From contig KB906736.1 of the NCBI GenBank assembly GCA_000381585.1, positions 344,789 to 408,788 of the forward strand: a DNA stretch of 64,000 nt, written 5' to 3'. The first letter of the stretch is position 1. Each line of letters opens with the position of its first letter. Both the position numbers and the translations under genes were made by a program. The stretch comes from Acidobacteriaceae bacterium KBS 83. GTDB taxonomy: Bacteria; Acidobacteriota; Terriglobia; Terriglobales; Acidobacteriaceae. The notes beneath the pieces were generated by a model. The model searched no databases and was not told where the DNA came from. It saw only the letters and a list, made by a program, of their open reading frames with translations. Shown here piece by piece: positions 14,145 through 61,234 of the stretch.

Positions 14145-14154
14145 TCGTTCCTCT

Positions 14155-19104: not shown

Positions 19105-19136
19105 GGCCGTCCTCCTTCACTGTAGATCGGTGCTGC

Positions 19137-21695: not shown

Positions 21696-21716
21696 GGGCT
21701 CCTCCTTTCGGTTTGG

Positions 21717-26831: not shown

Positions 26832-26860
26832 GAAGGCCGGAGCACGATGCTCCGGCCTTC
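26832..26860. terminator. Bidirectional terminator hairpin
   Basis: GAAGGCCGGAGCA (26832-26844) and TGCTCCGGCCTTC (26848-26860) form a 13-bp stem with a 3-base loop between the convergent antitoxin and aceE genes. T-runs on both sides are weak, but position and stem strength support a shared terminator. Confidence 0.8.
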
Positions 26861-32456: not shown

Positions 32457-35150
32457 ATGGCATGGCCTCTCTTTTCACGCAACCGTCGCTATGACGATCT
32501 CGTGGTGTCCATCCGGGAACATCTCGACGAGCGCACGGAAGAACTGATCGCGGACGGCATGTCCGAGAAAGAAGCCTCCCAGCAGGCCCGCCGCGAATTC
32601 GGCAACGTCACATTGACGGCAGAGCGCAGCCGCGAAGCGTGGCAGTGGCCGCGCCTGGAGAACCTGTGGGCCGATGTGAGATTCGCATTCCTGCGACTGG
32701 CAAAGGCACCGGGATTCGCGGCGACGGTAATCCTCACACTGGCGATAGGAATCGGTGCCAATACGGCAGTCTTCAGCGTACTCAACAGCGTGTTGATCAA
32801 ACCGCTGCCCTATCCGGGAGCTGAGGAACTTGTGGGGATTTCGCTGACGGCTCCCGGCGCAGCCGGACTGGCAAACTTCTCCAATGGCCTTCGCCTGTCG
32901 CCGTCGATGTATTTCACCTACACCGAGCAGAACCGCACCTTTCAATCCCTCGGCGTCTGGATTCCGGGGACTGCCAATGTCACCGGCTTCGCGCAGCCGG
33001 AACAAGCCCGCGCGGTCTTTGTCAGCGACGGGATACTCGAGACATTGAATGTTCCGGCCGCCGCTGGCCGCTGGCTCTCGCGGATGGATCAAAGTCCGCA
33101 CGGTGCAAAGACCGTGATGCTCAGCCACGCCTACTGGCAACAACATTTCGGCGGCGACCCTTCCGTGATCGGACGCAACATCATGGTGGATGCGCAACGG
33201 CGCGAGATCGTCGGGGTCATGCCACGAAAGTTTCGCCTGGTGAACGCCGACTTCGATCTGATCCTCCCGCTTGCCTTCGACCGCAACAAGCAGATCCTGG
33301 CCGGCTTCGGTTTCCAGGGCATCGCCCGGCTGAAGCCGGAAGTATCCATCACACAGGCAGATGCGGATATCACACGCATGCTGCCGATCTGGATGGATTC
33401 CTGGTCCAACGGTCCTGGTACGAATCCGCATTTCTACGAAACGTGGCGAATCACACCCGCGATTCATCCTCTGAAACAGGATGTGATTGGCAGTGTCGGC
33501 AACTTGCTTTGGGTTGTCATGGGAACACTTGGCGTGGTGATGCTGATCGCTTGCGCCAACGTGGCGAATCTAGTGTTGGTGCGGACGGAGGCCCGGCAAC
33601 AGGAGCTTGCCATCCGGTCTGCTCTCGGCGCCGGCCGGGCACGCATTGCTCGGGACTTGTTGACCGAAAGCTTGTTACTCGGTCTCATAGGCGGCGCGTT
33701 CGGAGTAGGGATCGCCTATGCGGGGCTCCGGCTCCTTATTGCAATAGGCCCGGCAAACCTGCCACGGTTGGCTGAGATCTCACTCGACGTGCGCGCACTC
33801 GCGTTCACGCTCCTGCTTTCGTTGTTGTCAGGCCTCTTATTCGGAATCATTCCGGTTCTCAAATATGCGGCACCACGTACTGCCAGTGCGCTTCACGCGG
33901 CGGGACGAACTGCGAGTCTAAGTCGCGACCGCCACCACTCGCGCAACCTTCTTGTGGTGGCTCAAGTGGCGATGGCGCTGGTACTGCTGGTAAGTGCAGG
34001 ATTGATGATTCGTACCTTTGAGCGATTGCGAACCGTCGAGCCGGGATTCTCCGATCCAAATCATCTGCAGACTCTGCGCATCTCGATTCCCGAGTCTCTG
34101 GTGTCGAACCCGCGCATGGTCGTGCGAATACAAAACAATGTTGCCGACAAGCTGGCGGCGATTCCGGGAGTGACTTCTGTCGGCTTTGCGAGCGGGATGC
34201 CGATGGAAGGACTGGAAGCTAACTGGGATGAAATCTTCGTAGAGGGAAAGGATTACACCGTTCAGACCGCACCGCTCCGGCTCTTCAAGTACGCCTCTCC
34301 CGGTTTCTTCCACGCGGCGGGGACAAGAATTGTCGCGGGACGCGAATTCACCTGGCCCGAGATCTATGGCCTACAGCCGGTGGGAATCGTTTCAGAGAAC
34401 CTTGCTCGCGAATTGTGGGGCTCTCCCGCCGCCGCGATCGGCAAGCGCTTCCGTGAGTTTCCGAGCATGCCGTTGCACGAAGTCGTCGGCGTCGTACAGG
34501 ACGTCTATGAAAACGGCGTTCACGACAACGCGCCTGCGATCGTCTACTGGCCTTCCATCATGCACGATATGTTTGGTCCTGGCACATTCGACGCCACACG
34601 CAGCGTGACATTCGTCGTCCGCAGTGACCGGGCCGGCACCGAGAGCTTCCTCAACGAGGTTCGCCAGGCCGTTTGGTCGGTGAATGCGAACCTCCCGCTG
34701 GCGTCCGTACAAACGATGCAGGATATCTACAGTCAATCGCTGGCGCGAACTTCGTTCACGCTGGTGATGCTGGGCATCGCCGGCGCGATGGCCCTGATTC
34801 TCGGGGTCATCGGTATTTATGGCGTGATCTCCTACGCGGTGTCGCAACGTACCCGCGAAATTGGCATTCGGCTCGCATTGGGCGCAGAAAAAGCCCGAAT
34901 TCTGCGCATGGTAATTCGGGAGGGTCTGCAACTCTCCATTGCCGGTATTGCCGTCGGCGTAGTGGTCGCACTGTTGCTCGCTCGCATGCTATCGGCTTTC
35001 TCGCGTCTGCTCTATGGGGTTCGGGCGAGCGATCCTATGACGTTTGTCGCTGTCTCGGCGACATTAGCCGCAGTGGCTGCACTGGCCTGTTATCTTCCGG
35101 CCCGACGGGCTGCGTCGATTGAGCCCATCCATGCCCTACGCGCGGAGTAG
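32457..35150 (+). CDS. ADOP-type permease with N-terminal prefix domain (PadR-linked, first)
   Basis: This 897-residue protein begins with a cytoplasmic helical prefix (about residues 10-65) containing IREHLDERTEELIADGMSEK and EASQQARREFGN. The two-half MacB-like permease follows: helix one about 85-115, periplasmic domain, FtsX helices about 355-475, second half from about 500 and FtsX helices about 770-885, ending in ARRAASIEPIHALRAE. AGGAG precedes the ATG. No ATPase, adaptor or TolC gene is nearby, which is the orphan situation that gives the ADOP family its name. Function is unknown. It is followed after three bases by a homologue. Confidence 0.92.
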   Translation: MAWPLFSRNRRYDDLVVSIREHLDERTEELIADGMSEKEASQQARREFGNVTLTAERSREAWQWPRLENLWADVRFAFLRLAKAPGFAATVILTLAIGIGANTAVFSVLNSVLIKPLPYPGAEELVGISLTAPGAAGLANFSNGLRLSPSMYFTYTEQNRTFQSLGVWIPGTANVTGFAQPEQARAVFVSDGILETLNVPAAAGRWLSRMDQSPHGAKTVMLSHAYWQQHFGGDPSVIGRNIMVDAQRREIVGVMPRKFRLVNADFDLILPLAFDRNKQILAGFGFQGIARLKPEVSITQADADITRMLPIWMDSWSNGPGTNPHFYETWRITPAIHPLKQDVIGSVGNLLWVVMGTLGVVMLIACANVANLVLVRTEARQQELAIRSALGAGRARIARDLLTESLLLGLIGGAFGVGIAYAGLRLLIAIGPANLPRLAEISLDVRALAFTLLLSLLSGLLFGIIPVLKYAAPRTASALHAAGRTASLSRDRHHSRNLLVVAQVAMALVLLVSAGLMIRTFERLRTVEPGFSDPNHLQTLRISIPESLVSNPRMVVRIQNNVADKLAAIPGVTSVGFASGMPMEGLEANWDEIFVEGKDYTVQTAPLRLFKYASPGFFHAAGTRIVAGREFTWPEIYGLQPVGIVSENLARELWGSPAAAIGKRFREFPSMPLHEVVGVVQDVYENGVHDNAPAIVYWPSIMHDMFGPGTFDATRSVTFVVRSDRAGTESFLNEVRQAVWSVNANLPLASVQTMQDIYSQSLARTSFTLVMLGIAGAMALILGVIGIYGVISYAVSQRTREIGIRLALGAEKARILRMVIREGLQLSIAGIAVGVVVALLLARMLSAFSRLLYGVRASDPMTFVAVSATLAAVAALACYLPARRAASIEPIHALRAE

Positions 35151-35153
35151 CTT

Positions 35154-37808
35154 ATGACCTGGTTCCAGCGCTTTTTTTCACGCCACCGCCGTTACGACGA
35201 TCTCTCCGTCTCTATCCAGGAACATCTTGACGAGCGAATTGAGGAGTTGATGGAATCTGGCCTGCCGCCAAAGGAGGCCGCGCAGAAAGCTCGCCGTGAA
35301 TTCGGCAACGTAACCGCGATCGCAGAACGCAGCCGCGAGGTCTGGCAGTGGCCAACGCTTGAGAGCATCTGGGCGGACGTAAGATTCGCGCTGCATCAAC
35401 TTCGCAAATCGCCGGGCTTTGCCATCACCGCGATTCTCACCCTGGCACTGGGAGTCGGTGCCACCACCGCCATCTTCTCCGTGGTGAAAGCTGTGCTACT
35501 GGCTCCGCTGCCTTATAAGGATGCGGAGCGCATCGTGGCCGTGTGGACAGTGAACCCCGCCAAGGGTGATCGCGGCCATCCGAGCACTGCTGCCGACTTC
35601 GCTATCTGGAAGCAACGGTCCGGCGTCTTTGAGGACTTGGCTCCCTCCTACGACGATCAACACACGCTCACAGGCCAGGGCGCGCCGCAACTCCTGATCG
35701 GCTATGCCGTTTCCGCAAACTACCTGCGTATTCTCGGTGTCCAACCGCAACTCGGCCGGCTCTATACCGATCAAGAGGACAGCCCGAAAAGTCCGCATGT
35801 GGCGCTCGTGAGCGATCACCTGTGGCGCACCACCTTTCGCTCCGATCCCGCTATCGTCGGGAAGGCCATCACCTTGGATGGTTCTTCATACACGGTGCTC
35901 GGCATCATGCCACGGAGCTTCGACTATCCGACCACGGTCCAGATATGGACTCCTGCTGCGATCGAAGCCTCCGCGTTCGACGACTACAACCACGCCTATG
36001 TGCGCATTCTCGGCCGTCTGAAAGCGGGCATCACCGTCGCGCAGGCGCAGAAGACATTGAACGCATTGGAGGCGCAGATTGCCGCACAGCACCCGAACAC
36101 TGACGCCGGCAACCGGGTACTGGTGGTCCCGCTGCGTGAGCAGCTCGTCGGCGATATCCGCAAACCGCTACTGCTGTTGATGGCGGCGGTAGGACTGGTG
36201 CTGCTGATTGCGTGCGCGAACACCGCCGGGCTGGCACTGGCACGCGATGCCGAGCGGCAGAAAGAGATAGCGGTGCGGCTCGCGCTCGGCGCCACGCGTC
36301 TGCGCCTGCTGCGTCAGTTTGTGACCGAGAGTCTGGTGCTCGCTGCAATCGGCGGCGTGATCGGCATGCCCCTGGCTTTCGTGGGAACGCATTTCCTGCT
36401 CCGCCTCTTCCCCAATGATGTCGCCAACCTTCACATCCCGAAGGTGACTGAGATCCCGATGGATCGTGGGGTCTTCCTGTTCGCCTTCGGCATCACGCTG
36501 CTCGCCGCAGTTCTCTTCGGCATTGCACCAGTGCTGAAAGCGATGCGCGCCAGAGCGGACACTGCGATGAACGACAATTCCCGCGGCAGCACGACAAGCC
36601 GCCATTCCAATCGTTCACGCAATGCCGTCGTCATCAGCGAAGTGGCGCTGTCGCTGGTACTGCTTACCGCTGCCGGTCTTGTCGTTGCGAGCTTTCAGCG
36701 CGTGATTCGCGCCGACCTTGGCTTCCAGCCGGATCATCTTCTTTCGATCGAGGTGCTCCTTTCTGCCAGCCACTACCCTGCCAACGACGACGCGAAGAGG
36801 CGCACTCTTGTCACCGAGACAGTGAAGCGGATGAACGCACTGCCGGGCGTGCGATCCGCTGGCGCCACGAACTATCTGCCACTGAGCGGCTTCTGGGGCA
36901 CGAACAACTTTCTGTTGCGCGGCCAGGCGCCGCCGAAGGAAGGCCAGGCGCCCGAGGCGGATGATCGCGTGATCACTCCGGAATACCTGCGCACCATGGG
37001 CATACCGCTGCTCCGTGGCCGAAACTTCAGCGATACGGATCGCGCCGGCAGTCCGCAGGTCATCCTGATCAACCAGACGATGGCGGAGCGCTTCTTCAAG
37101 GGCCGAGACCCGATCGGTGAAGAATTGAATCTGAATCCACCGGCCCCCGGCGTACCGGACAAACCCGACTGGTGGCGGATCGTCGGCGTCGTCGGCGATG
37201 TGAAGGCCTTCGGGCAGGACCAGCCGACACACGCTGACATCTATCATCCCTTCGACCAGCAGCCGTACCCTTTGATTGCCTTCACGCTGCGTACGGCAAC
37301 CGACTCGGCGTCGATGATCAAGACCGCGGAACAGACACTGTGGAGCGTCGATCCGGAGCTGCCGGTCTTCCAGGCCATTCCCATGGACCAACTCGCCGAT
37401 CAGTCGCTCGCGGTGCGCCGCGCCAGTTCCGTGCTGGTCTCCGCGTTCGCGGTGCTTGCGCTGGTGCTGGCGTCCATCGGCATCTATGGCGTGATGGCCT
37501 ACGCGGTCACGCAGCGCACGCAGGAGATCGGAGTTCGCATGGCGCTCGGCGCGCGACGTGAGGATGTGCTGCGCCTGGTCCTCGGACTCGGGCTTAGGCT
37601 CACAATCCTCGGCGTTCTCATCGGGCTGATTGGCGCACTCCTCTCGACGCGTCTGATGGGGAGCCTGCTCTTCGAAATCAGCGCAGCGAACCCGCTCGCC
37701 TTCATGCTTCCCGCTGCACTGCTCGCTATCGTCACCTTGCTCGCTGCATATTTGCCCGCTAGACGGGCAGCTTCCATCGATCCCATACGGGCGCTCCGGG
37801 CGGAATAG
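35154..37808 (+). CDS. ADOP-type permease with N-terminal prefix domain (PadR-linked, second)
   Basis: This 884-residue paralogue of the preceding protein has the same prefix (IQEHLDERIEELMESGLPPK then EAAQKARREFGNVTAIAERS) and the same order of domains: helix one about residues 85-115, first FtsX block about 340-460, second half from about 490 and last FtsX block about 755-875, ending in ARRAASIDPIRALRAE. The prefix is the most conserved part between the two proteins. It starts three bases after the upstream stop and is therefore cotranscribed with PadR. No hairpin terminator is obvious in the 194 bases that follow. Confidence 0.92.
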   Translation: MTWFQRFFSRHRRYDDLSVSIQEHLDERIEELMESGLPPKEAAQKARREFGNVTAIAERSREVWQWPTLESIWADVRFALHQLRKSPGFAITAILTLALGVGATTAIFSVVKAVLLAPLPYKDAERIVAVWTVNPAKGDRGHPSTAADFAIWKQRSGVFEDLAPSYDDQHTLTGQGAPQLLIGYAVSANYLRILGVQPQLGRLYTDQEDSPKSPHVALVSDHLWRTTFRSDPAIVGKAITLDGSSYTVLGIMPRSFDYPTTVQIWTPAAIEASAFDDYNHAYVRILGRLKAGITVAQAQKTLNALEAQIAAQHPNTDAGNRVLVVPLREQLVGDIRKPLLLLMAAVGLVLLIACANTAGLALARDAERQKEIAVRLALGATRLRLLRQFVTESLVLAAIGGVIGMPLAFVGTHFLLRLFPNDVANLHIPKVTEIPMDRGVFLFAFGITLLAAVLFGIAPVLKAMRARADTAMNDNSRGSTTSRHSNRSRNAVVISEVALSLVLLTAAGLVVASFQRVIRADLGFQPDHLLSIEVLLSASHYPANDDAKRRTLVTETVKRMNALPGVRSAGATNYLPLSGFWGTNNFLLRGQAPPKEGQAPEADDRVITPEYLRTMGIPLLRGRNFSDTDRAGSPQVILINQTMAERFFKGRDPIGEELNLNPPAPGVPDKPDWWRIVGVVGDVKAFGQDQPTHADIYHPFDQQPYPLIAFTLRTATDSASMIKTAEQTLWSVDPELPVFQAIPMDQLADQSLAVRRASSVLVSAFAVLALVLASIGIYGVMAYAVTQRTQEIGVRMALGARREDVLRLVLGLGLRLTILGVLIGLIGALLSTRLMGSLLFEISAANPLAFMLPAALLAIVTLLAAYLPARRAASIDPIRALRAE

Positions 37809-50664: not shown

Positions 50665-51894
50665 TCAACGGTTCACGGCAGTGGCATTCGCCGCCGGGTA
50701 AACCTTGATCCAGTGGTCCGTCATCCGCGGTCTCATCTTTGCTCCCTTCCAATCGAAGACAATCAGGTTCGTCTCCTGCTTCGGCATGTGGCAATCGATG
50801 CAGTTGTTGGTGACAGGATGATTCGCCCGCGCGAATGTTGCAGAGCCAGGTTTGTGGCAGCTGAGACATTTCTGGGAAAATTCGCCAGCGTCGTGCTGGG
50901 TCTTATGCACGTCGTGGCACGTGAGGCATGTCATATTCGAGGATCGGAAGCAGCGGCTCTGCTTCAGTAAGTCCACCTGGTTGCCGTGGACATCGATCGG
51001 CGCATGCGGATCAGGCGGTGGCAGTTGAAGGTACTCATCCAGCGGTTGGCCGGGAAGATACGAAAACGATGGGCGTAAGGGCTGGCCATGTCCCGCGTGA
51101 CACCATGCGCAAAGGTCCATCTGGCGATCGCGCGAGAAGTGCGCCGGGTTCAGAATTGTCGACCGTGACGCGAGCGATGGTTTGGATGCCTGCTGCTCGA
51201 CATGTGCGCGTCCTGGTCCATGACACTTTTCGCACTGGATACCGAGCGAGAAGCCGACGGTGCTGTACCTGTTGACCGGAGGCGGCAGAGCATCAAAGTG
51301 GGTTGCGTGGCATTCCAGGCATCGAGGGATGATGGGGCGGTCAAAGTCAGCGAAGCCATCTCGATATCCGGGGCTGTTCACCCAACCAAGCTTCGTCCAG
51401 TAAGAGACTGGCAATTGGAAGAGCTGATCTTCGCTCCAGTACAGATAGGTCTGACCCTTCTCGCCCGACCCAATGACGAAAGCAATGCGCTCGGAGCGCG
51501 AGTTCGTGTGCGAAGGCGTGCCTGCAACGGCGGTCTGAAGAAAGCTGTCTTGCTTCCCTTCCCCGTGCTGCTCATCCGTGTGCTGCATGTCCATCCGGAA
51601 GTAGAGATTCGGATTCGCAGTCTTCAGGATGTTGTCGCCGGGCGTGAAGTTACCAAGAATGGAGTCGTGGCCGGGCGCCATCGACGTCAGGTGGTGTGCG
51701 GTCTTGTGATAAGAGGCAAACTCATCGGCATGACATGACCGGCAGGCAACATCGCCAACATAGCCGACGTGCGGCGCGGCCGATGTTTCAACCGAGTGTG
51801 CGGCGACCGCCCGAGCAGACGAATACCCGCTCCCGCGAATGAGCGGGACGAGGCAGACCAGGATTGCAAGGACGACCGCAAAGCGGCTTTTCAT
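50665..51894 (-). CDS. Heptahaem c-type cytochrome, secreted
   Basis: This 409-residue protein has a signal peptide (MKSRFAVVLAILVCLVPLIRG) and seven CXXCH haem-attachment motifs, in order CRSCH, CLECH, CEKCH, CAWCH, CLTCH, CLSCH and CIDCH. Extra His residues (YHKTAHH, HATHF, HGPGRAH) can serve as distal ligands. This resembles the cytochrome c554 / octahaem-like multihaem group; predicted role is periplasmic electron transfer or reduction of a small molecule. The start at 51894 is preferred over an ATG 33 bases upstream because a decayed duplicate of this gene (55640-55804) begins at the equivalent Met (MKRAFAVVLAI). It lies downstream of the first tandem Oar gene, separated from it by a terminator. 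Confidence 0.88.
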   Translation of the reverse strand: MKSRFAVVLAILVCLVPLIRGSGYSSARAVAAHSVETSAAPHVGYVGDVACRSCHADEFASYHKTAHHLTSMAPGHDSILGNFTPGDNILKTANPNLYFRMDMQHTDEQHGEGKQDSFLQTAVAGTPSHTNSRSERIAFVIGSGEKGQTYLYWSEDQLFQLPVSYWTKLGWVNSPGYRDGFADFDRPIIPRCLECHATHFDALPPPVNRYSTVGFSLGIQCEKCHGPGRAHVEQQASKPSLASRSTILNPAHFSRDRQMDLCAWCHAGHGQPLRPSFSYLPGQPLDEYLQLPPPDPHAPIDVHGNQVDLLKQSRCFRSSNMTCLTCHDVHKTQHDAGEFSQKCLSCHKPGSATFARANHPVTNNCIDCHMPKQETNLIVFDWKGAKMRPRMTDHWIKVYPAANATAVNR

Positions 51895-51960
51895 TGGACC
51901 GGAGATTTTTCTCGCGGCAGGACGCATCCGAAACAGAGTATGCCGCGGCCGTGAGCAATG

Positions 51961-51990
51961 AAAAGGCCGGAGCGAGTGCTCCGGCCTTTT
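51961..51990 (-). terminator. Terminator of the downstream tandem Oar gene
   Basis: AAAAGGCCGGAGC (51961-51973) and GCTCCGGCCTTTT (51978-51990) give a perfect 13-bp stem with a 4-base loop and T4 on the minus strand, 24 bases after the Oar stop. It is homologous by position and sequence to the hairpin at 55860-55890. Confidence 0.88.
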
Positions 51991-52014
51991 TGAGTTACAG
52001 ATTGCCAGCGACGA

Positions 52015-55000
52015 TCAGAACTCGTAGCGAACCGAGAACCGGCCGTAGAATGCCCGCTGGTAAGAGGTAGGACTATTGAAGGTTGGATCCGCTGCCTGCT
52101 GGAAGCCCGTGTCAATGTTCTGGTTCACGGTCCTCGTGAACTGCGAATTGGTGACGTTAAAGCCATCGAAGGCCAGCTTCAACGAGCCCTTATCACCGAA
52201 GTTGAAGGGATAATCGAGGTGAGTATCGAGTTGCAGCCTTGTGGCTGTCGTACCAAAGGTACCGCGGCCACCAATCGGAATCTCGCCCACGTTCTGATAA
52301 ACGGGATGCGATGCCAGTTGGGAGATGGGCGTGCCGGTCTGGCCACGCAGTCCGATACCACCCGTCAGTTTGCGGAACTTCCCGTTCTGGAGGGAGTACG
52401 ATCCGTACAGATTGCCCACATTGCGGCGGTCGGTATTGAGGTATCCCGGGGTGAACTGATCACCGAGCAGGCCAACCACACCCTGGGTGAAGTCGAAGAG
52501 CGAGCTGATGCCGGGGTCCGATTGGCCGTTATCGTTGCGGAAGAGACCTTCATAGTTCCCCCACAATTTGGCGAAGCGATAATTGGCGCGAACCAGGAAG
52601 CCTTTGCTGAAGTTCTTGTTCAACTCGACTTCCAGGGATTGGTAGCGGCGTACCGGTTCAGCATAGCCGTCTGGTTTTCCGTCGGAGACGGGAAGGCCAG
52701 CAACATCTGGATTCTGACCGCAGGCAGCGCCTATAACGTTGCCAAGGCTGTCCTCCTGCACCCCGTAATCGGCTACGCAATTCGCAGGAGGCGGACCGTT
52801 TGGATTGTACTTCTCCTCGATCTCGTTGGTGAAGTAATCCGCGCTCGGGCTGGGATTGCCAATTACGTACACTTGATTTGGCAAACCAAAGTTCGAACCT
52901 TCCGGCGAGACGCCTTGCATGTCTTCGACGATGCGCTCCAGTCGACGATCCGAGTAGCGGACGGCGAGCACCATACCGCTGGCCACTTCACGCTCGAAGC
53001 CAAGCAGATACTCCTCTTCGAAGTTCAGCCTGGTGCCGGAGTGAATCAGTTCGGGAATGGCGGAGGATGCAGTGATATTGCTGAAGCCATTGGTTCCGCT
53101 CAGCAGGTGTGCAGAGTCGTAGATCGGAGTGACTGTTCCGTCGGCGTTGGTTAGCAGGTTTCTACCGTCGGAGGGCGCGGCCCAGCGGGCGGAATTGATA
53201 TCCAGCTCCTGATTCAGCTCGCGAATTGCCGCGTCCGTGGGAAGAGCCTGGGTGTAGCGGCCCCAGTTGAAGAAGACCTTGGTCTTGCGATCGGCAAATG
53301 GATCGACGTTGATGCCAAAGCGCGGAGACCAGTTGTCGTTGAACACATACTGCTGGTTCGGTCCGTTGAGCTGCTCCTCTTCCCAGCGAAGGCCGGCATT
53401 GATGGTGACGCGGCGGTTGATCGCCCACGAATCGTTGACATAGGAAGAGAGATAGCTCTCGTTTGAGGTCGCCTGCGGGCTGCTCCACAAACCACGCACC
53501 TGACGCAGATAGACTTGAACTGGCGCCGGGTTCGAACCCAGGTAGAAGGGGCAGAGGGTTGGTGGACAAGTCACCAATCCGGTCGTAGAGTCCACCGGAG
53601 CCTTTGACAGATAGAACGCCGCGCTTGTCTGAGCGCCAACCAAAGCATCACTGCCGCCTATGTCCTGAATCGCGACGCCGTCCGCATTGGTTGAAGGGAA
53701 GGCGAAACGGGGACCCGAGTAATCTCTGGCCACCAGGTAGGTAGCGCGACCGAAGCCGAAGCCGCCGGAGAATGTGTGCGGGCCGAAGAGATTGGCGACC
53801 TTCTGGATGTCGATGGTAGCGCCGTAAGACTTGTTCTCTGGGTTCTGGTAGATTCCAAGTCCCTGGAACCCGGCAACGCCGTTAGTGCGATCACTTATAG
53901 AGGGGATGTTGTCAAAACCTGCTTCTGTGAAATTGCTGGTCTTGTAGGTTGCTGCAAGGTTGAGCTGAGTCGTTGGATTCAACGAGGATGCCATGTGGGC
54001 GACTACAGCGCGGCTGCCATAGTTCCAGGTGCTGAAGCTCGTGGTGTTCTTCAGCTGGATGTTCGGATACGGAACTGTACCCACACCGTTGAAGCTGTAA
54101 TTGTTGTGCGCGGGATCACCGAATGCAGATACGTCGAGCGTTGTGCCATCGGTGACCTTTACGCTTAACTTGCCGGCCCAGCTACGGGTGGTCGCGGACG
54201 AGGTGAAGTCGCCCTGATTGTAGACGGCCGCCGCGAATGGCGTATTGGGCGCAATAAAGTTGAGCTGGTTCAGAGAAGGATTGAACGATCCGAAAAAGAA
54301 GAGACGGTCATTGTGCCCCTTGACCGGGATATAGCCACCCAGCTCGACGCTGGCATCATATGCCGGCTGTGAGAACACTTTCCCGCGCTGAAAACCTGGG
54401 CCCGCGAACGTGCGAGCGTTGTCTTGATAGTAGTAACCAGCGCCAGCACCTGTAGGCGCCATGTAAGCTGCCACAGCACCGTGCAGCTGGGTGCCGCCAG
54501 ATTTGGTCACGATCTGCAGCACGCCGCCATTCACGCCGCCGTACTTCGGCTCATAGGCTGCAGTCTTTACCTGAACCTCCTGAATGAAGGACAGATTGAT
54601 GCCGGTTCCGAGCGAACCATAGACCGGGCTGAAAACGCCGAGCCCCCCGTAGCCGGAATCGTTCAGCACGACACCGTCGACGAGGTAGAGATTTTCAAGA
54701 CCGGTCGCGCCGCCGACTGACGGATTCGATGTGCCGGTCAAGCCGCCGTCCACCACACCAGGCGAGACGTAGAACAACGAGCCGATATTACGAGCAATAG
54801 GAACCTGCTGATAAAAAGTGGCGGTGAGATTGTCACTGACTGCAGTCGAGCTTGTGTCGATGCTGACCGTGGTCGCATTCACTTCGACCGTCTCGGCAAC
54901 ATTGCCGGTGGCGAGTGAGAAGTCCACGCTTTGAGTTCTGTTGATAACGACTTCGAGGTTCTTCGCGGTCTGCTTTTGGAAGCCGGCCTTCTCCACCTCG

Positions 55001-55257
55001 ACTGTATACATTCCCGGCGTAAGGTCTGACGCGATGAATCGTCCAGCACTGTCGGTGGTTACGACGCGATGGTCGGAGGCGCCGGTGACGGTGACTTTTG
55101 CATCGGGAATGATGGCTCCCGATTTATCGGTGATGACGCCACCCAGGCCGCCGCGAGTTGCGGAGAGCTGTTGGCTGTAGAGATAGCTCGGTACGCTAAT
55201 CCCCGCCGTGACCGCAAGAGCGGACAGCAGGAGACACTTTCTCCAGAGCTGCTGCAT
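52015..55257 (-). CDS. Oar-like TonB-dependent receptor (tandem copy 1)
   Basis: This 1080-residue protein has a signal peptide (LLLSALAVTAGISVPSYLYS), a carboxypeptidase-regulatory-like domain (about residues 33-115, GGLGGVITDKSGAIIPDAKV), a plug (about 125-270, with a VGGATGLENLYLVDGVVLNDSG loop and a YGGVNGGVLQIVTKSGGTQLHG strand) and a beta-barrel ending in RFSVRYEF. ATG 55257 has GGGAGGA upstream; a longer frame to 55404 is rejected. It is a close paralogue of the gene at 55913, sharing long identical blocks in the plug and the barrel. The least conserved parts are surface-loop-like, which would fit divergence in ligand. A GGCCGGAG terminator follows. Confidence 0.92.
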   Translation of the reverse strand: MQQLWRKCLLLSALAVTAGISVPSYLYSQQLSATRGGLGGVITDKSGAIIPDAKVTVTGASDHRVVTTDSAGRFIASDLTPGMYTVEVEKAGFQKQTAKNLEVVINRTQSVDFSLATGNVAETVEVNATTVSIDTSSTAVSDNLTATFYQQVPIARNIGSLFYVSPGVVDGGLTGTSNPSVGGATGLENLYLVDGVVLNDSGYGGLGVFSPVYGSLGTGINLSFIQEVQVKTAAYEPKYGGVNGGVLQIVTKSGGTQLHGAVAAYMAPTGAGAGYYYQDNARTFAGPGFQRGKVFSQPAYDASVELGGYIPVKGHNDRLFFFGSFNPSLNQLNFIAPNTPFAAAVYNQGDFTSSATTRSWAGKLSVKVTDGTTLDVSAFGDPAHNNYSFNGVGTVPYPNIQLKNTTSFSTWNYGSRAVVAHMASSLNPTTQLNLAATYKTSNFTEAGFDNIPSISDRTNGVAGFQGLGIYQNPENKSYGATIDIQKVANLFGPHTFSGGFGFGRATYLVARDYSGPRFAFPSTNADGVAIQDIGGSDALVGAQTSAAFYLSKAPVDSTTGLVTCPPTLCPFYLGSNPAPVQVYLRQVRGLWSSPQATSNESYLSSYVNDSWAINRRVTINAGLRWEEEQLNGPNQQYVFNDNWSPRFGINVDPFADRKTKVFFNWGRYTQALPTDAAIRELNQELDINSARWAAPSDGRNLLTNADGTVTPIYDSAHLLSGTNGFSNITASSAIPELIHSGTRLNFEEEYLLGFEREVASGMVLAVRYSDRRLERIVEDMQGVSPEGSNFGLPNQVYVIGNPSPSADYFTNEIEEKYNPNGPPPANCVADYGVQEDSLGNVIGAACGQNPDVAGLPVSDGKPDGYAEPVRRYQSLEVELNKNFSKGFLVRANYRFAKLWGNYEGLFRNDNGQSDPGISSLFDFTQGVVGLLGDQFTPGYLNTDRRNVGNLYGSYSLQNGKFRKLTGGIGLRGQTGTPISQLASHPVYQNVGEIPIGGRGTFGTTATRLQLDTHLDYPFNFGDKGSLKLAFDGFNVTNSQFTRTVNQNIDTGFQQAADPTFNSPTSYQRAFYGRFSVRYEF

Positions 55258-55422
55258 ACACTTCCTCCCAAAGGAACTGAAATTTCGCGAGTGGCTAACA
55301 TGGCCATTTCGCATTTGAAATTCATGAGACCCAGGTACCACACACGATTCGTCCCGGAATGTTGTAGTCTCACATTCTATTTTGCCGCATGTATAGCCCG
55401 GCATGGAAACGAATCACAATGG
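55258..55422 (-). promoter_or_regulatory. Conserved leader of Oar copy 1
   Basis: This leader is clearly homologous to the one at 59174-59337 before copy 2. A 29-base block with a single mismatch lies at 55287-55315 here and 59203-59231 there, containing the palindrome TGGCCA and a GTGGCTAAC motif. Conservation amid otherwise drifting DNA suggests a promoter or mRNA element kept by selection. Confidence 0.5.
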
Positions 55423-55640
55423 AAAACTGACCAGCTTACATTTAATCGTGACGAATTGGAAGAGGGGTCTCGCCGGCGTGATTCTCTGCGTCTTCGGGAG
55501 CTGAGGAGTTGCCCGCCTCCCGACGCGCCGCTGCCAAAACCGTATAGGCCTTTTTCGGAGGATATCCAGCAGCAATAGACTGGCCTCAATCAGTATACCC
55601 CAAGCGCGCGATCATGCTGGCTGAGCGCGTACTGGCGGCG
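55423..55640 (-). pseudogene. Decayed 3' end of a GWxTD gene
   Basis: This stretch aligns with the 3' end and downstream flank of the GWxTD gene (59338-59563). A block of 28 identical bases lies around 55592-55626 / 59514-59543 (encoding ALSQHDRAL). Shorter matches follow in order (around the GYPPKEAY and REAGN codons, and a TCGTGACGA box after the stop). Small indels break the frame. It lies directly upstream of Oar copy 1, just as the intact GWxTD gene lies upstream of copy 2. Confidence 0.82.
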
Positions 55641-55804
55641 CCGGGCAGACGTCAACGCCAACATAGCCGGCGCGGATGAAGCGGCGATCCGGGCGTCTCG
55701 ACTGAGTGAGCGTCAACAGTCTGAGCCGAGGAATGTCATTCCGCCTGGACGCGCGGGAAGAGGCATACCGCTATCGCGAGCACAACTGCAAAGGCTCTCT
55801 TCAT
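55640..55804 (-). pseudogene. Decayed 5' end of a multihaem cytochrome gene
   Basis: From ATG 55804 the frame reads MKRAFAVVLAIAVCLFPRVQAE and then stops, matching MKSRFAVVLAILVCLVP of the intact cytochrome. Further on, AHSVET and, after a frame shift, GYVGVDVC correspond to AHSVET and GYVGDVAC in the intact protein. Homology ends near 55640, just after the first Cys codon of haem motif one, where sequence like the GWxTD gene takes over. The distance to the intact start (3910 bases) equals the period of the Oar duplication. Confidence 0.85.
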
Positions 55805-55859
55805 TTTGCTGGGCGCCCTGTCGCCTCCCGAACACGATATCGTTCTGTCGTTAGCAATG

Positions 55860-55890
55860 AAGAGGCCGGAGCATGACGCTCCGGCCTCTT
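55860..55890 (-). terminator. Terminator of the upstream tandem Oar gene
   Basis: AAGAGGCCGGAGC (55860-55872) and GCTCCGGCCTCTT (55878-55890) form a 13-bp stem with a 5-base loop, 23 bases after the Oar copy 2 stop. The stem has compensating changes (A-T pairs shifted) compared with the sister hairpin at 51961, as expected when structure is selected. Confidence 0.88.
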
Positions 55891-55912
55891 TAATTACGGT
55901 TGCCACCAGCGA

Positions 55913-58900
55913 TCAGAACTCGTAGCGAACCGCGAACCGCCCATAGAACGCACGCTGGAAGCTGGTCGGCGAATTGAAGGTCGGATCGGCACCTGACTGG
56001 AAACCAGTATCAATGTTCTGGTTAACAGTTCTATTGAACTGAGAGTTGGTGACGTTAAAGCCATCGAAGGAAAGGTTAACGACCCCCTTGTCTCCAAGGT
56101 TTATTGGATAGGCTGTATGAAGGTCGAGCTGCAGTGCGGTGGAGAGCGTTCCAAAGGTACCGCGGCCACCGATGGGTATCTCACCCGTGTCCTGGTACAC
56201 GGGATGGGAAGCTAGCCGGGAGATCGGTGTTCCGGTCGTGGCCCGCAGCCCGGCGCCTCCTGTCAGCTTGCGCAAAAATCCATTCGGAACCGTGTACGAG
56301 CCGTACAAATTGGCAACATTGCGACGATCCGTGTTCAGGTAGCCCGGCAAGAACTGATCGCCGAGAAGGCCAACTATGCCCTGAGTAAAGTCGAACAGAG
56401 AGCTGATGCCCGGATCCGACTGCCCGTTGTCGTTGCGGAAGAGGCCCTCATAGTTGCCAAAGAGTTTCGCGAAACGATAGTTCGCGCGGATCATGTAGCC
56501 TTTGCTGAAGTTCTTGTTCAGCGCGACTTCAAATGACTGATAGTGGCGCACCGGCTTTGCGAAACCGTCGGGCTTGCCATCCGATATTGTCAATCCTGCC
56601 GTGTCTGGATTCTGGCCACACGCGGCGCCGACTACGTTGCCCAGGCTGTCTGACTGCACACCGTAGTCGGCAACACAGTTTGCGGGTGGCGGGCCGGCAG
56701 GATTGTAGGGAATCTCCTGTTCGTTGATGAAGTAGTCCGTGGAGGGGCTGGGGTTGCCGATCAGGTAGATCTGGTTGGGAAGACCATAATTGGCGCCTTC
56801 CGGAGAGACACCCTGCATGTCCTCAATGATCCGCTCGAGACGCCGGTCGGAATAGCGCAGATCCAGCACCATACCGCTGGCAATCTCACGCTGGACCCCG
56901 AGAAGGTACTCTTCCTCGAAATTCAGTCTCGTTCCCCCGTGGATCAGCTCGGGTGCGGAGGAGCTAACCGAGATATTGGAGGCCGGTCCTGGTGAGGTGG
57001 GAGAGTTGGCGTACCTTGTGATCCCGCTCAGCAGGTGAGCCGCGTCGAGGATCGGAGTGATCGTACCGTCCGGATTTGTAACCAGGTTCCTGCCATCGGA
57101 GGGCGCCGCCCAGCGGGCGCCGTTTAGATCCAGTTCCTGGTTCAACACGCGAATGGCCGCGTCGGTCGGGAGAGCCTGGGTGTACCTACCCCAGTTGAAA
57201 TAGACCTTTGTTTTGCGATCGGCGAACGGGTCGATGTTGATACCGAGTCGAGGGGACCAATTGTCGACGAAGACATACTGTTGATTTGGGCCATTGAGCT
57301 GCTCCTCTTCCCATCTCAGACCGGCGTTGATAGTCATGCGCCGATTGATGGCCCATGAATCGTTGACATAGGAGGAGAGATAGCTCTGGTTAGACGTTGC
57401 GAAAGGTGCGCTGAATAGACCGCGTACTTGCCTCAGATAGACCTGCATCGGACCTTCCGAGGTGTTGTAGAAGGGGCAGAGAGTTGTCGGACAGTTGGAA
57501 CTTGCCGTTTGCAAATAGAATGCTGCACTCGTAGGAGTGCCGGCGAGGGCACTGCTGCCGCCGACATCAGTGATTGGGACTCCATCCGCATTCGTCGACG
57601 GGAACGGGAACCGTCCACCGATGTAGTCCTTATCCACTAGATAAGTCGCCCGACCGAACCCGAAGCCTCCCGAGAAGGTGTGCGGTCCGAAGAGACTTGC
57701 AATCTTCTGGATGTCGATGGTAGCGCCATACGATTTGTTCTTGGGATTCTGAACGAAGCCGCCGTTCAATCCCTGAAAGTTCGTACTGCCGACTGTCAAA
57801 TCAGCGATTGAGAAGATATTGTCGTATCCCGCTTCGGTGAAATCACTGTTTTTGTAGGTGGCCGCAATGTTCAGCTGCGTCGTCGGATTCAGAGACGAAG
57901 CGAGGTGGGCCACGATGGCCCGGCTACCATACGCCCAGGTGCTGAAGCCGGTAGTGTCTTTTATTTGAATGTTTGGATCAGGCGGCGCCGCAGTAAAAAC
58001 AATGTTGTAGCTGTAGTTTTGTTTAGCTGGATCGCCAAAGGCGGAGGCCTCAAGCGTCGTTGCATCTGTGATCTTCAGGCTCAGCTTGCCTGCCCAACTC
58101 TTCGTGGTGGCGGAACTTGCGTAGGGGCCGTGATTGTAAATAGGGGCACTAAAGGCTGTGTTTGGCGCCAAAAAATATGTCTGATTCAGCGAAGGGTTGA
58201 ACGACCCGAAAAAGAAAAGCCGGTCATGATGGCCTTTGACCGGAATGAATCCTCCCAGCTCGATGCTCGCGTCGTAGGCGGGAAGAGTGAAGATTTTCCC
58301 GCGCTGGAAGTCTGGGCCCGCGAACGCACGGTGGTTGTCAGCGTAATAGAATCCCGAAGATGCCCATCCCGGACCCATATAGCCGGCAAGCGCGCCATGG
58401 AACTGCGAGCCACCGGTTTTGGTGACGATCTGGAGAACGCCGCCATTCACGCCTCCATACTTTGGCTCGTAGGCGGCGGTCTTCACCTGGACTTCCTGGA
58501 TGAAGGACAGATTGATACCTGTGCCCAGCGATCCATAGATCGGGCTGAATACACCGAGGCCGCCGTAGCCAGAGTCGTTCAGCACAACGCCGTCGACCAG
58601 GTATAGATTCTCAAGACCGGTCGCGCCACCAACGGACGGGTTTGAGTTGCCCGTGCCGCCGCCGTCGACGACTCCCGGTGACACATAGAAGAGCGATCCA
58701 ACATTTCGCGCAATCGGAACCTGCTGATAGAACGTGGCAGTCAGGTTGTCGCTCACAGCGGTCGAGCTGGTATCGATGTTGAGGGTGGTGGCATTCACCT
58801 CAACCGTTTCAGCAACATTGCCTGTTGCCAGTGAAAAGTCTACGCTTTGTGTCTTGTTGATGACGACTTCGAGGTTCTTCGCGCTCTGCTTTTGAAAACC

Positions 58901-59173
58901 GGCCTTCTCCACCTCAACGGTGTACATTCCTGGGGTGAGGTCCGACGCGGTGAATCGCCCGGCAGCGTCAGTGGTCACGACGCGATGGTCGGATGCGCCG
59001 CTGATGGTGACTTTCGCATCGGGGATAATGGCTCCCGACTTATCTGTGATAACGCCGCCCAGGCCGCCGCGTGTTGCGGAGAGCTGCTGGGCATATAGAT
59101 AGCTCGGCATGCTAACGCCTGCTGCGACCGCAAGGGCCGACAGCAGGAGACATTTTCTCCAGAGCTGATGCAT
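55913..59173 (-). CDS. Oar-like TonB-dependent receptor (tandem copy 2)
   Basis: This 1086-residue receptor is the duplicate of the gene at 52015: same signal peptide (LLLSALAVAAGVSMPSYLYA), same regulatory-like domain, plug and barrel, ending in RFAVRYEF. ATG 59173 has GGGAGGA upstream at the same spacing as in copy 1. Differences cluster in predicted extracellular stretches, for example around residues 535-560 and 600-640 and an insertion of about 12 residues (ITRYANSPTSPGPAS) near residue 730. It lies 183 bases downstream of the GWxTD gene. Both copies are intact, so both are likely still used. Confidence 0.92.
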   Translation of the reverse strand: MHQLWRKCLLLSALAVAAGVSMPSYLYAQQLSATRGGLGGVITDKSGAIIPDAKVTISGASDHRVVTTDAAGRFTASDLTPGMYTVEVEKAGFQKQSAKNLEVVINKTQSVDFSLATGNVAETVEVNATTLNIDTSSTAVSDNLTATFYQQVPIARNVGSLFYVSPGVVDGGGTGNSNPSVGGATGLENLYLVDGVVLNDSGYGGLGVFSPIYGSLGTGINLSFIQEVQVKTAAYEPKYGGVNGGVLQIVTKTGGSQFHGALAGYMGPGWASSGFYYADNHRAFAGPDFQRGKIFTLPAYDASIELGGFIPVKGHHDRLFFFGSFNPSLNQTYFLAPNTAFSAPIYNHGPYASSATTKSWAGKLSLKITDATTLEASAFGDPAKQNYSYNIVFTAAPPDPNIQIKDTTGFSTWAYGSRAIVAHLASSLNPTTQLNIAATYKNSDFTEAGYDNIFSIADLTVGSTNFQGLNGGFVQNPKNKSYGATIDIQKIASLFGPHTFSGGFGFGRATYLVDKDYIGGRFPFPSTNADGVPITDVGGSSALAGTPTSAAFYLQTASSNCPTTLCPFYNTSEGPMQVYLRQVRGLFSAPFATSNQSYLSSYVNDSWAINRRMTINAGLRWEEEQLNGPNQQYVFVDNWSPRLGINIDPFADRKTKVYFNWGRYTQALPTDAAIRVLNQELDLNGARWAAPSDGRNLVTNPDGTITPILDAAHLLSGITRYANSPTSPGPASNISVSSSAPELIHGGTRLNFEEEYLLGVQREIASGMVLDLRYSDRRLERIIEDMQGVSPEGANYGLPNQIYLIGNPSPSTDYFINEQEIPYNPAGPPPANCVADYGVQSDSLGNVVGAACGQNPDTAGLTISDGKPDGFAKPVRHYQSFEVALNKNFSKGYMIRANYRFAKLFGNYEGLFRNDNGQSDPGISSLFDFTQGIVGLLGDQFLPGYLNTDRRNVANLYGSYTVPNGFLRKLTGGAGLRATTGTPISRLASHPVYQDTGEIPIGGRGTFGTLSTALQLDLHTAYPINLGDKGVVNLSFDGFNVTNSQFNRTVNQNIDTGFQSGADPTFNSPTSFQRAFYGRFAVRYEF

Positions 59174-59356
59174 ACACTTCCTCCCAAAAGAACTCGGTTG
59201 TAGCGAGTGGCTAACGTGGCCATTTCGCATTCGAATCTGATCGAAACTCGGCACCAGGCGCAATTTGTCCCGAATTGCTGTGCCTTCGAGTTCCGTTTAT
59301 CGCCTGTATAGACTTTTGGAAGGTGGAGCTACAACGGCAAACTGACGAGGCTACGG

Positions 59357-61234
59357 CTAGTCGTGACGAGTTGGGAGGGGATTGTTGCGAGCGTGTTCTT
59401 CTGCGTCTTCGGCGGCCGTGATGTTGCCGGCCTCGCGATACGCAACCGCTAGGACCGTATACGCCTCTTTGGGTGGATAGCCGGCCGCGATGGACTGCCT
59501 GAGATAGTAGACCGCAAGCGCGCGATCATGCTGGCTGAGCGCACACTGGCCGCGCCGAAAGGCATCCAGCGGATCATTGATGCGATGATACGAGGGACTG
59601 AGAACAGTCCATAGCTGCGGCCTGGGATTTGTAATATTCAAATTCAGCGCCTGCGACACATGTGTGCCATCGGCCGGGTCCGTAACCTGGATCACCAGTC
59701 GATATGGACCGGACGACAGCTCGCCGGTCTCAAGATCTTTACCAATCAGAAGATTTCCGAAACGGTCGAAGCCTCCTTTGTCGACTGACTGCGTGGTTTG
59801 CTGCTTCTGCGGCAGGCCAAGCTGGCCGAGAGTGTAGACCACATCGAGATTCCCTTGCTCCGGCGTGGATTGGGGTTTGCCCCAGATCTGATAGAGAAGG
59901 CGAACGGGCGAGCCGCGCGGCACAGATGCATTTTCGCCGCCGAGCGGCGCGAACTGCACACCGGCCAGCGTGAAGGGCAGCGATTGCGTAGGATCGGCAT
60001 TCGGCTTGTCGAGTGTCAGCAGCATAGGCGAGCTGAGGTTGAGGCGCGAGTCAAACGCGGGCACAACCACATTGCGCGACTGCGTGAATGCCTGATGTGT
60101 CACCTTGTTGGTGACAGTCAGCGCGAGCGTGTAGGCGCCGGGCGATGCAGGAAGGCGGCCCTCCAGCGCGAATCTTCTCTGACGGCGCTCCGCCACGTCG
60201 GCGGCGGTCAGATAGTTCATCAGATTTTGCGTGTCCCGATAGATGACCTGCCCATTGGAGCTCTTCATTGTCGCTTCTACATCCACGCTGTAGTAGTAGC
60301 GACCATCCTCGCCTTGGGCGACGAAAAAGTCCTGCGGATTGAAGAGCTGGAAGAGGTAGGAGACGCTGGCGAGGGCGTCTCCATCGCGAGTGGCCATCAC
60401 GCTGAGGTCGCTGAAGGACTCTCCGAGAACGATCCTGTGGCTCACGTTCTCGTGCATCGCGCGGCGCTCGTCCAGGAGTTCAATGTTTTCCGGAAGATTG
60501 CGATAATTGCGAATACGGTCCAACAGCGACTCGGACTCAAGACTGGGGCTGTCCAGGCTGGCGGGTTCGTTGGGCAGCAGGGTGAGAGCGATCTTCGCAA
60601 CCTCGGCGCCGAGGTCTTGCTTGATGATCTTGATCGCCATCGCCTCATCGTTGACCGCGTTCGTGCTCTGCACCAGCCGCTCCGGCTTATCAAGCATCGG
60701 CGAGTAGAGCTTGTAGTCCTCATTCAGCGAGCGCTGGTAGAAAACGACGTAGAAATAGGGCGGGAGCGCGTGATTGGGACTCGGGCTTTGGTAGAACCAT
60801 ATCTCGAGCGGAGTCAGGTACTGGCTGGAGCGATACGGCGTCAGCTGCTGTGGAGCCCCGAGCGTGATGTAGACCATGCCGCGAGCGGTGCGCCATCCAT
60901 CGTGACGGCCAGGCGAACCGAACTGATCATTGGCGTAGGCGAGCCGGCGATAGTATTCGTCGCGGAACTGGTTGGTCGGCGAGTTTGGATCGGGATTGCG
61001 AATTTCCCAAAAGGTCTGGATGAAGGCGTCACGATCGGCGTCAGTCTTCAGCGCGAGAAACGCGCTTCGCTCCGCGTTGGTGATGATGTAAGGGACTTCC
61101 TCATTGAGCCAGGTGGCATATTTCGCCGGTACGGTGGCTTTGGTAGCAGCCGGCAACGCTCCCGTCCCACACATACTCAAGATCAGAACAAGTAGAAAGC
61201 GGCATGCGCGCCGCGTGAATCGCATCTGTGACAA
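59357..61234 (-). CDS. Secreted GWxTD-domain protein
   Basis: This 625-residue protein has a signal peptide (LLVLILSMCGTGALPAA) and a GWxTD domain (about residues 35-215) containing FWEIRNPDPNSPTNQFRDEYYRRLAYAND, HDGWRTARGMVYITLG and LEIWFY. The name motif is GWRTA here. Strand-rich domains follow (about 250-530), and a C-terminal helical TPR-like pair covers about 565-620 (ALSQHDRALAVYYLRQSIAAGYPP). GWxTD proteins are typical of Acidobacteria and Bacteroidetes and have no settled function. The start is uncertain: TTG 61234 has GAGGAG ten bases upstream, while ATG 61225 is nine bases further in. Its 3' end has been copied and decayed in front of Oar copy 1. Confidence 0.88.
   Translation of the reverse strand: MSQMRFTRRACRFLLVLILSMCGTGALPAATKATVPAKYATWLNEEVPYIITNAERSAFLALKTDADRDAFIQTFWEIRNPDPNSPTNQFRDEYYRRLAYANDQFGSPGRHDGWRTARGMVYITLGAPQQLTPYRSSQYLTPLEIWFYQSPSPNHALPPYFYVVFYQRSLNEDYKLYSPMLDKPERLVQSTNAVNDEAMAIKIIKQDLGAEVAKIALTLLPNEPASLDSPSLESESLLDRIRNYRNLPENIELLDERRAMHENVSHRIVLGESFSDLSVMATRDGDALASVSYLFQLFNPQDFFVAQGEDGRYYYSVDVEATMKSSNGQVIYRDTQNLMNYLTAADVAERRQRRFALEGRLPASPGAYTLALTVTNKVTHQAFTQSRNVVVPAFDSRLNLSSPMLLTLDKPNADPTQSLPFTLAGVQFAPLGGENASVPRGSPVRLLYQIWGKPQSTPEQGNLDVVYTLGQLGLPQKQQTTQSVDKGGFDRFGNLLIGKDLETGELSSGPYRLVIQVTDPADGTHVSQALNLNITNPRPQLWTVLSPSYHRINDPLDAFRRGQCALSQHDRALAVYYLRQSIAAGYPPKEAYTVLAVAYREAGNITAAEDAEEHARNNPLPTRHD

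Follow-up and report, generated by a model that had tools for sequence, protein, structure and literature searches.

We analysed a 64,000-nucleotide (nt) stretch (the window) of the Acidobacteriaceae bacterium KBS 83 genome (contig KB906736.1, positions 344,789-408,788; genome 6.25 Mb in 21 contigs) and found a diverged tandem repeat carrying two Oar-like receptor genes, with stumps of two further genes, a GWxTD-domain gene and a cytochrome c gene, at its seam. The tandem is real, well preserved and ordinary in kind; the dating puzzle set by its stumps probably alters its history. Our first choice, held tentatively, is that two already diverged copies of GWxTD - Oar - cytochrome, one of them foreign, were placed side by side by one illegitimate recombination younger than their divergence. 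The parts of the locus, in window coordinates, are as follows.

51741..55643, minus strand: repeat copy 1, with the GWxTD 3' remnant, Oar1, a terminator and the 5' part of the intact cytochrome gene (from the blastn self-alignment and regional identities)
55644..59557, minus strand: repeat copy 2, with the 3' part of the intact GWxTD gene, Oar2, a terminator and the cytochrome 5' remnant (same basis)
55643..55644, no strand: seam between the GWxTD and cytochrome remnants, where the two aligned blocks abut
52015..55257, minus strand: Oar1, TonB-dependent-receptor-like; longest open reading frame (ORF) 52015-55404, probable ATG at 55257 after GGGAGGAAG; CarboxypepD_reg and OMP_b-brl_4
55913..59173, minus strand: Oar2; longest ORF 55913-59263; 82% amino-acid identity to Oar1; CarboxypepD_reg and OMP_b-brl_4
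55442..55643, minus strand: GWxTD 3' remnant, matching the gene's final 67 codons, counting the stop; a TGA in frame and an insertion of 1 nt both fall within 55578-55601
55644..55804, minus strand: cytochrome 5' remnant, from the ATG to just past the first Cys codon, carrying an in-frame TGA (inside 55730-55747) and 7 inserted nt (inside 55669-55687)
59357..61234, minus strand: intact GWxTD-domain gene (PF20094 and TIGR04514, both above cut-off)
50665..51894, minus strand: intact cytochrome c gene, multihaem type (PF13435 above cut-off; longest ORF to 51927)

Comparison of the whole window with itself by blastn aligned 51741-55643 to 55644-59557 with 73.1% identity over 3965 columns (E = 0, 2298 bits), while the runner-up repeat reached 268 bits. 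The alignment forms a single diagonal that spans the remnants, and the copies lie head to tail with abutting ends, the layout of a tandem (direct) duplication. Read along the minus strand, the GWxTD gene (61234-59357) is followed by Oar2 (to 55913), a hairpin, the cytochrome stump and the seam, and then by the GWxTD stump, Oar1 (to 52015), a hairpin and the multihaem-type cytochrome c gene (to 50665). Identity between the copies is 118/176 in the cytochrome 5' end, 56/86 in the cytochrome-Oar spacer, 2506/3365 in the Oar ORF, 21/38 in the gap between the Oar ORF and the GWxTD stop, and 153/200 in the GWxTD 3' end. An earlier note on this DNA had described a head-to-tail GWxTD 3' end - Oar - cytochrome 5' end in which both receptors and terminators are retained and both partial genes are dead, and our results bear this out. 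Its four offsets were all reproduced by recomputation: 3898 between the Oar stops (52015/55913), 3899 between the terminators (51964/55863), 3910 between the cytochrome ATGs (51894/55804) and 3916 between the Oar ATGs (55257/59173). Its boundaries need small corrections, in that the repeat placed at 51741-59563 ends at 59557, and the remnants said to meet at about 55640 do adjoin, at 55643/55644. Chance similarity is ruled out by E = 0 across 3.9 kb, and an assembly artefact is unlikely, because the copies are 27% different and both lie within one 826,801-base contig. No longer repeat was traced beyond 51741-59557 in the window self-comparison, and no extra copies of the tandem DNA were found elsewhere in the genome at E <= 0.001. 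The seam flanks share zero bases, that is, no microhomology at present, although later divergence could mask a few; inverted repeats of at least 8 nt were not found near the seam.

Both stumps are dead, the GWxTD stump through its TGA and 1-nt insertion and the cytochrome stump through a TGA followed by its 7-nt insertion. Protein searches of the genome recovered each of them, the GWxTD remnant with 74% identity over query residues 579-625 (E 1.2e-14) and the cytochrome remnant with 56% identity over query residues 10-52 and one TGA (E 5.6e-7). The decayed GWxTD 3' end, given previously as 55423-55640, exists but spans 55442-55643, the remainder being Oar1 spacer; the decayed cytochrome 5' end (55640-55804) likewise exists, with its lower boundary at 55644. 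The intact GWxTD protein carries the GWxTD domain (PF20094; TIGR04514 at 107.5 bits, cut-off 28). Compared with solved structures by sequence it has no relative at E <= 0.01, and a literature search on the word "GWxTD" found no paper in the library searched. Conservation with the stump indicates that the intact cytochrome gene likely starts at ATG 51894, rather than at the first ATG of its ORF, 51927. Its product falls below the cut-offs of both decahaem families tried (GSU2203, 56.6 against 325 bits; DmsE, 44.3 against 192.2) and can be classed no further than cytochrome c of the C554/multihaem kind (PF13435).

Each receptor contains an N-terminal carboxypeptidase-regulatory domain (PF13620) and a barrel (PF25183), both above cut-off, which makes them Oar-like. 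The TonB plug PF07715 matches in Oar2 only, below its cut-off, and the enterobactin receptor 1fep is matched weakly by profile (positions 140-285 of the profile, E 8.5e-6). Both probably act as TonB-dependent transporters in the outer membrane, with the carboxypeptidase-regulatory domain at the N terminus. The name Oar is that used in the earlier note; the families themselves come from Pfam and NCBIfam. The two proteins are identical at 877 of 1072 aligned residues, and a codon-level comparison by the Nei-Gojobori method gives a nonsynonymous distance (dN) of 0.132, a synonymous distance (dS) of 1.63 and their ratio, omega, of 0.081. Purifying selection acts on both Oars, and both look alive. 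Their four-fold distance is 1.29 (interval 1.06-1.56, 473 sites), with 0.61 in the first 100 codons and 1.37 and 1.49 elsewhere. Nonsynonymous differences are densest in codons 300-600 (118/296); this region perhaps forms surface loops, which would fit a substrate split. One GWxTD gene may now serve both receptors.

The seam is probably younger than the Oar1/Oar2 divergence, judging from how the stumps differ from the genes. Had they been unselected since the split, codon positions 1 and 2 should have changed nearly like silent sites, whereas the observed change is mainly in third positions. Between the GWxTD stump and the gene, differences number 11/67, 8/67 and 28/66 at codon positions 1, 2 and 3; between the working GWxTD gene of G001, the sole congener compared, and the KBS 83 gene they number 10/67, 8/67 and 34/67. 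For the cytochrome stump, counted from the likely start, the figures are 10/52, 14/51 and 25/51. We fitted a two-phase model in which each stump is selected and then dead (k 0.71, w 0.16), assuming equal rates in both lineages and Jukes-Cantor distances near saturation. On the Oar clock, the dead share of the time is 0-0.12 for the GWxTD stump and 0-0.42 for the cytochrome stump (0-0.08 and 0-0.26 with w 0.25); with the stumps' own third positions as the clock, the best dead share is 0-0.22 and 0-0.44. The fragments therefore do not appear as old as the duplication, a result softened for the cytochrome by the local clock discussed below. The always-noncoding GWxTD-Oar spacer is also less alike between the copies (121/183; 89/148 outside copy 2-congener blocks) than is the GWxTD stump (153/201).

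We next compared KBS 83 with relatives, for which the best 76 loci out of 124 candidates, from named genomes, were used. The nearest named relatives by Oar protein belong to the Acidobacteriaceae, among them Granulicella sp. dw_53 and Acidipila sp. EB88, and are 50-53% identical. A GWxTD match above 140 bits lies within 2 kb of the Oar at 32 of the 76 loci and at 25 of the 33 whose Oar scores above 650 bits, counts that are lower bounds because some contigs end near the gene. The GWxTD gene is downstream on the same strand in 21 cases, upstream on the same strand in 7 and upstream on the opposite strand in 4. This widespread Oar-GWxTD neighbourhood in Acidobacteria, in three arrangements, suggests a functional pair. 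No cytochrome match above 100 bits was found near the Oar at any of the 76 loci; at other loci of the family, 5 of 30 examined, the cytochrome stands next to an ASPIC/FG-GAP gene (L170, L172, L185, L186, L192; flanks of about 1.5 kb). A second Oar match above 300 bits is absent from 75 of the 76 loci within the flanks examined. A tandem Oar-like pair occurs in an Acidobacteria metagenome-assembled genome (L128, 468-3713 and 4283-7534), each member 28-29% identical to Oar2. Among 398 family genomes, with two candidates scored per genome, 17 have an Oar at E <= 1e-220, and only the present genome has two copies; the other 16 are 44-55% identical. Five genomes have two loci each: Edaphobacter aggregans, SRVP_32, gp4 AA26, RBC046 and Luteitalea Dino_bin50. 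Thus the single-copy state that the earlier note suggested looking for in relatives holds in that the tandem is absent from those examined, which mostly have one such Oar, but it is not strict. Among the genomes examined, the tandem is peculiar to the KBS 83 lineage. In E. aggregans DSM 19364, two Oar-GWxTD modules lie 26 kb apart on one scaffold and are 79.9% identical over 5827 columns (L085 10064-15567, L086 10007-15527). One of its GWxTD genes matches the other in frames 2, 1, 2, and so is frameshifted, unless this is a draft error. Silent divergence of its Oar pair ranges from 0.13 to 1.57 per 150-column stretch, a mosaic that suggests exchange between the copies.

From G001 come a GWxTD match of 83% and the opening 353 codons of one Oar. 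Over 1385 ungapped columns, agreements confined to one pair number 152 for copy 1 and copy 2, 106 for copy 2 and G001, and 126 for copy 1 and G001. The three appear nearly equidistant, close to the star expected for orthologues from three species. At four-fold sites, Oar1 and Oar2 are separated by 1.29 and KBS 83 and G001, at the GWxTD gene, by 0.96 (281 sites). The Oars are no closer than the two species, indicating that the copies parted roughly when the species separated, or shortly afterwards. The G001 GWxTD-Oar module sits after glycosidase-like genes (classed by eye; L070 6994-8550). The best KBS 83 match to the nearest of these, at 83%, lies on a different contig (L202 7815-9362, G000:C2) with neither GWxTD nor Oar alongside, so that the module is not fixed in place and moves between congeners.

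These observations could be accounted for by the following sequence of events. DNA from a congeneric species, comprising GWxTD 3' end - Oar - cytochrome, would enter the cell and pair by homology at its cytochrome end, while its other end would be end-joined into the resident cytochrome gene, a homology-facilitated illegitimate recombination. Such a route, with homology at one end and end-joining at the other, has a parallel in the portion of a report that concerns E. coli conjugation (PMC3240628). One step would give the resident GWxTD - Oar2 - cytochrome stump, followed by the donor GWxTD stump - Oar1 - cytochrome. Both stumps would be dead from the joining onward, with slight decay since, and both receptors would go on functioning under separate promoters and terminators. 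At about 27% difference on arrival, the copies would be spared collapse by recombination. More specifically, and with less assurance than the late joining itself, we suppose that the twin receptors might be orthologues from two sister species, and that the stumps would date their merger well after their divergence. For import one event suffices and the near-star is explained, whereas trimming of an old duplication needs two events and a long-surviving identical tandem.

Several points weigh against import. The donor genome was not found, only one congener was compared, and its contig stops 1.06 kb into the Oar, so that one Oar cannot be told from two there. The seam lacks the microhomology that end-joining might have left, and third-position G+C content (GC3; 0.69 and 0.67) does not distinguish the copies. 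In a tree built from 349 protein columns and including seven outgroups, Oar1 and Oar2 are sisters with G001 outside (alternatives at approximately unbiased, AU, p 0.018 and 0.003), so the donor would have to be closer than G001. An N-terminal conversion tract does not appear to drive this grouping, which persists without the first 100 codons (AU p 0.037 and 0.007; Kishino-Hasegawa and Shimodaira-Hasegawa p 0.057 for one alternative); those 100 codons alone leave the tree undecided. The lateness of the seam is itself tempered by the spacer, which differs less than silent sites do and thus points to a slower local rate. With a slow local clock (T 0.305, about half the distance of the spacer or of the first 100 codons), nothing marks the cytochrome stump as unusually young (P 0.58), but the GWxTD stump remains too young even then (P 0.0016). 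Changes found in the GWxTD stump alone are spread evenly over the three codon positions (5, 6, 5), as in pure decay; the three-way comparison alone would be compatible with an always-dead but slow GWxTD stump, the oddity lying in the low number of changes and not in their pattern.

These last results suit the history given in the earlier note, a single tandem duplication with breakpoints inside two genes and neutral, decaying fragments ever since. It needs one event, the copies abut, both fragments carry lesions, and neither the flat stump-only changes nor a cytochrome stump no more conserved than the slow local rate predicts speaks for a late death. We nevertheless regard it as doubtful. The stumps are too preserved and too codon-like to have decayed since the copies separated: the probability of having been dead throughout is 3e-12 for the GWxTD stump and 6e-6 for the cytochrome stump on the Oar clock, and 0.0007-0.004 and 0.013-0.064 with their own third positions as the clock, across four parameter settings. 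Moreover, the part of a Salmonella study that deals with pseudogenes reports that bacteria delete them fast (PMC2916853). An old full-length duplication with late trimming, in which two complete units stood side by side for long before a deletion fused the inner cytochrome and inner GWxTD genes, fits the codon-like stumps and the two-phase clock results as well as import of a diverged copy does. It also fits the sister relation of Oar1 and Oar2, and the E. aggregans pair with one frameshifted GWxTD indicates that module pairs with a failing partner gene occur. It requires two events, however, and no longer repeat is traced outside 51741-59557. In bacteria, long identical tandem repeats are unstable until they have diverged, and this one would have had to survive until then; we consider this history unlikely. 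Gene conversion from the working genes could also have refreshed the stumps of an early seam, masking its age. The closer first 100 Oar codons (0.61 versus 1.37 and 1.49 at four-fold sites) are in keeping with this, and mosaic divergence is known in the family from the E. aggregans twins (0.13-1.57 along Oar). However, the third positions of the GWxTD stump (28/66) are near the Oar average of 0.505, indicating that it was not recently overwritten, and a tract across the lesions would have erased them; the own-third-position test allows refreshing and still disfavours lifelong decay. This history appears very improbable to us.

Upstream and downstream of the receptors we found candidate control elements:

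55390..55419, minus strand: putative Oar1 promoter, TTGTGA-N18-TATACA
59305..59334, minus strand: putative Oar2 promoter, TTGTAG-N18-TATACA
51964..51987, minus strand: terminator-like hairpin 3' of Oar1, fold z -6.05
55863..55887, minus strand: terminator-like hairpin 3' of Oar2, fold z -6.73, with one A-U pair of the other copy replaced by G-C

The promoter-like layout TTGT..-N18-TATACA is common to copy 1, copy 2 and the congener, with differing intervening bases, and the same ribosome-site block precedes both Oars. With a putative promoter and terminator of its own for each receptor, the locus probably leaves the dead seam untranscribed. A consensus promoter scan returned 4 sites against a shuffle mean of 4.9, neither proposed Oar promoter among them. 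A terminator scan returned 10 sites against a shuffle mean of 10.4, with both Oar hairpins absent from its output, perhaps because the T run sits inside the stem. At 26834-26858 there is another, third instance of the hairpin core AGGCCGGAGC...GCTCCGGCCT, unrelated to the repeat; since it recurs in the genome, the hairpin alone is weak evidence for duplication. Between promoter and Oar start lies a 29-nt block, AATGCGAAATGGCCA(C/T)GTTAGCCACTCGC (55287-55315 and 59203-59231), which both copies retain and the congener largely shares; it is a possible operator or leader element. A structured leader RNA was considered and rejected: stretches upstream of the two Oars show no more folding than shuffles do (z 1.12 and 0.77; of the stumps, only 29 nt of GWxTD were covered).

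Elsewhere in the window, seven ADOP-family duplicated permeases, all above the TIGR03434 cut-off, occupy 11664-24263 and 32457-37808. Five are consecutive on the minus strand and two are on the plus strand, with DNA stretches about 65-80% alike.

Duplication and import of a diverged relative are hard to tell apart from two intact genes alone. Stumps at a seam add another clock: where their age is less than that of the copies, simple duplication is not how the pair arose, and the present locus is a small, checkable example. It suggests that an Oar-GWxTD pairing can give way to a pair of receptors with a single GWxTD gene alongside. If import is correct, mergers may often underlie the diverged tandem receptor pairs of Acidobacteria, the second GWxTD having been lost and both receptors kept.

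Tandem duplications with truncated boundary genes are a general class in bacteria. KBS 83 shares with it the head-to-tail copies, fragments only at the seam and one intact boundary gene at each outer end, and differs in that its copies are 27% apart and its fragments look younger than the copies. The E. aggregans twins are similar in having two module copies per genome, about 20% different, with one GWxTD frameshifted, and by analogy support the idea that one GWxTD of a module pair can fail with both receptors persisting. They differ in being 26 kb apart and non-tandem, in keeping the frameshifted GWxTD at full length (the frameshifts could be draft errors) and in being strongly mosaic. In Myxococcus xanthus, Oar is described as a TonB-dependent transporter required for secretion of the protease PopC (PMC6434023); the likeness, compared by description, is one of name and general type, and the secretion role is not transferable. 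The sections on Candidatus Solibacter usitatus paralogues report ancient small-scale paralogues and a whole-genome self-comparison without long repeats (PMC3174227). Acidobacteria there, as here, are rich in old diverged paralogues, including TonB-dependent receptors, and those sections contain no seam of the KBS 83 type. For the orphan immunity gene arrays of the Vibrio cholerae type VI secretion system, the relevant part of one study tentatively proposes homology-facilitated illegitimate recombination, which it calls rare (PMC5361080). Many strains document the steps there, and the KBS 83 genes are instead an outer-membrane receptor and its neighbours. In both systems the proposal is the same: a diverged module would come to lie beside its resident counterpart, with an anchor at one of its ends and an illegitimate joint at the other, and gene remnants would be left behind.

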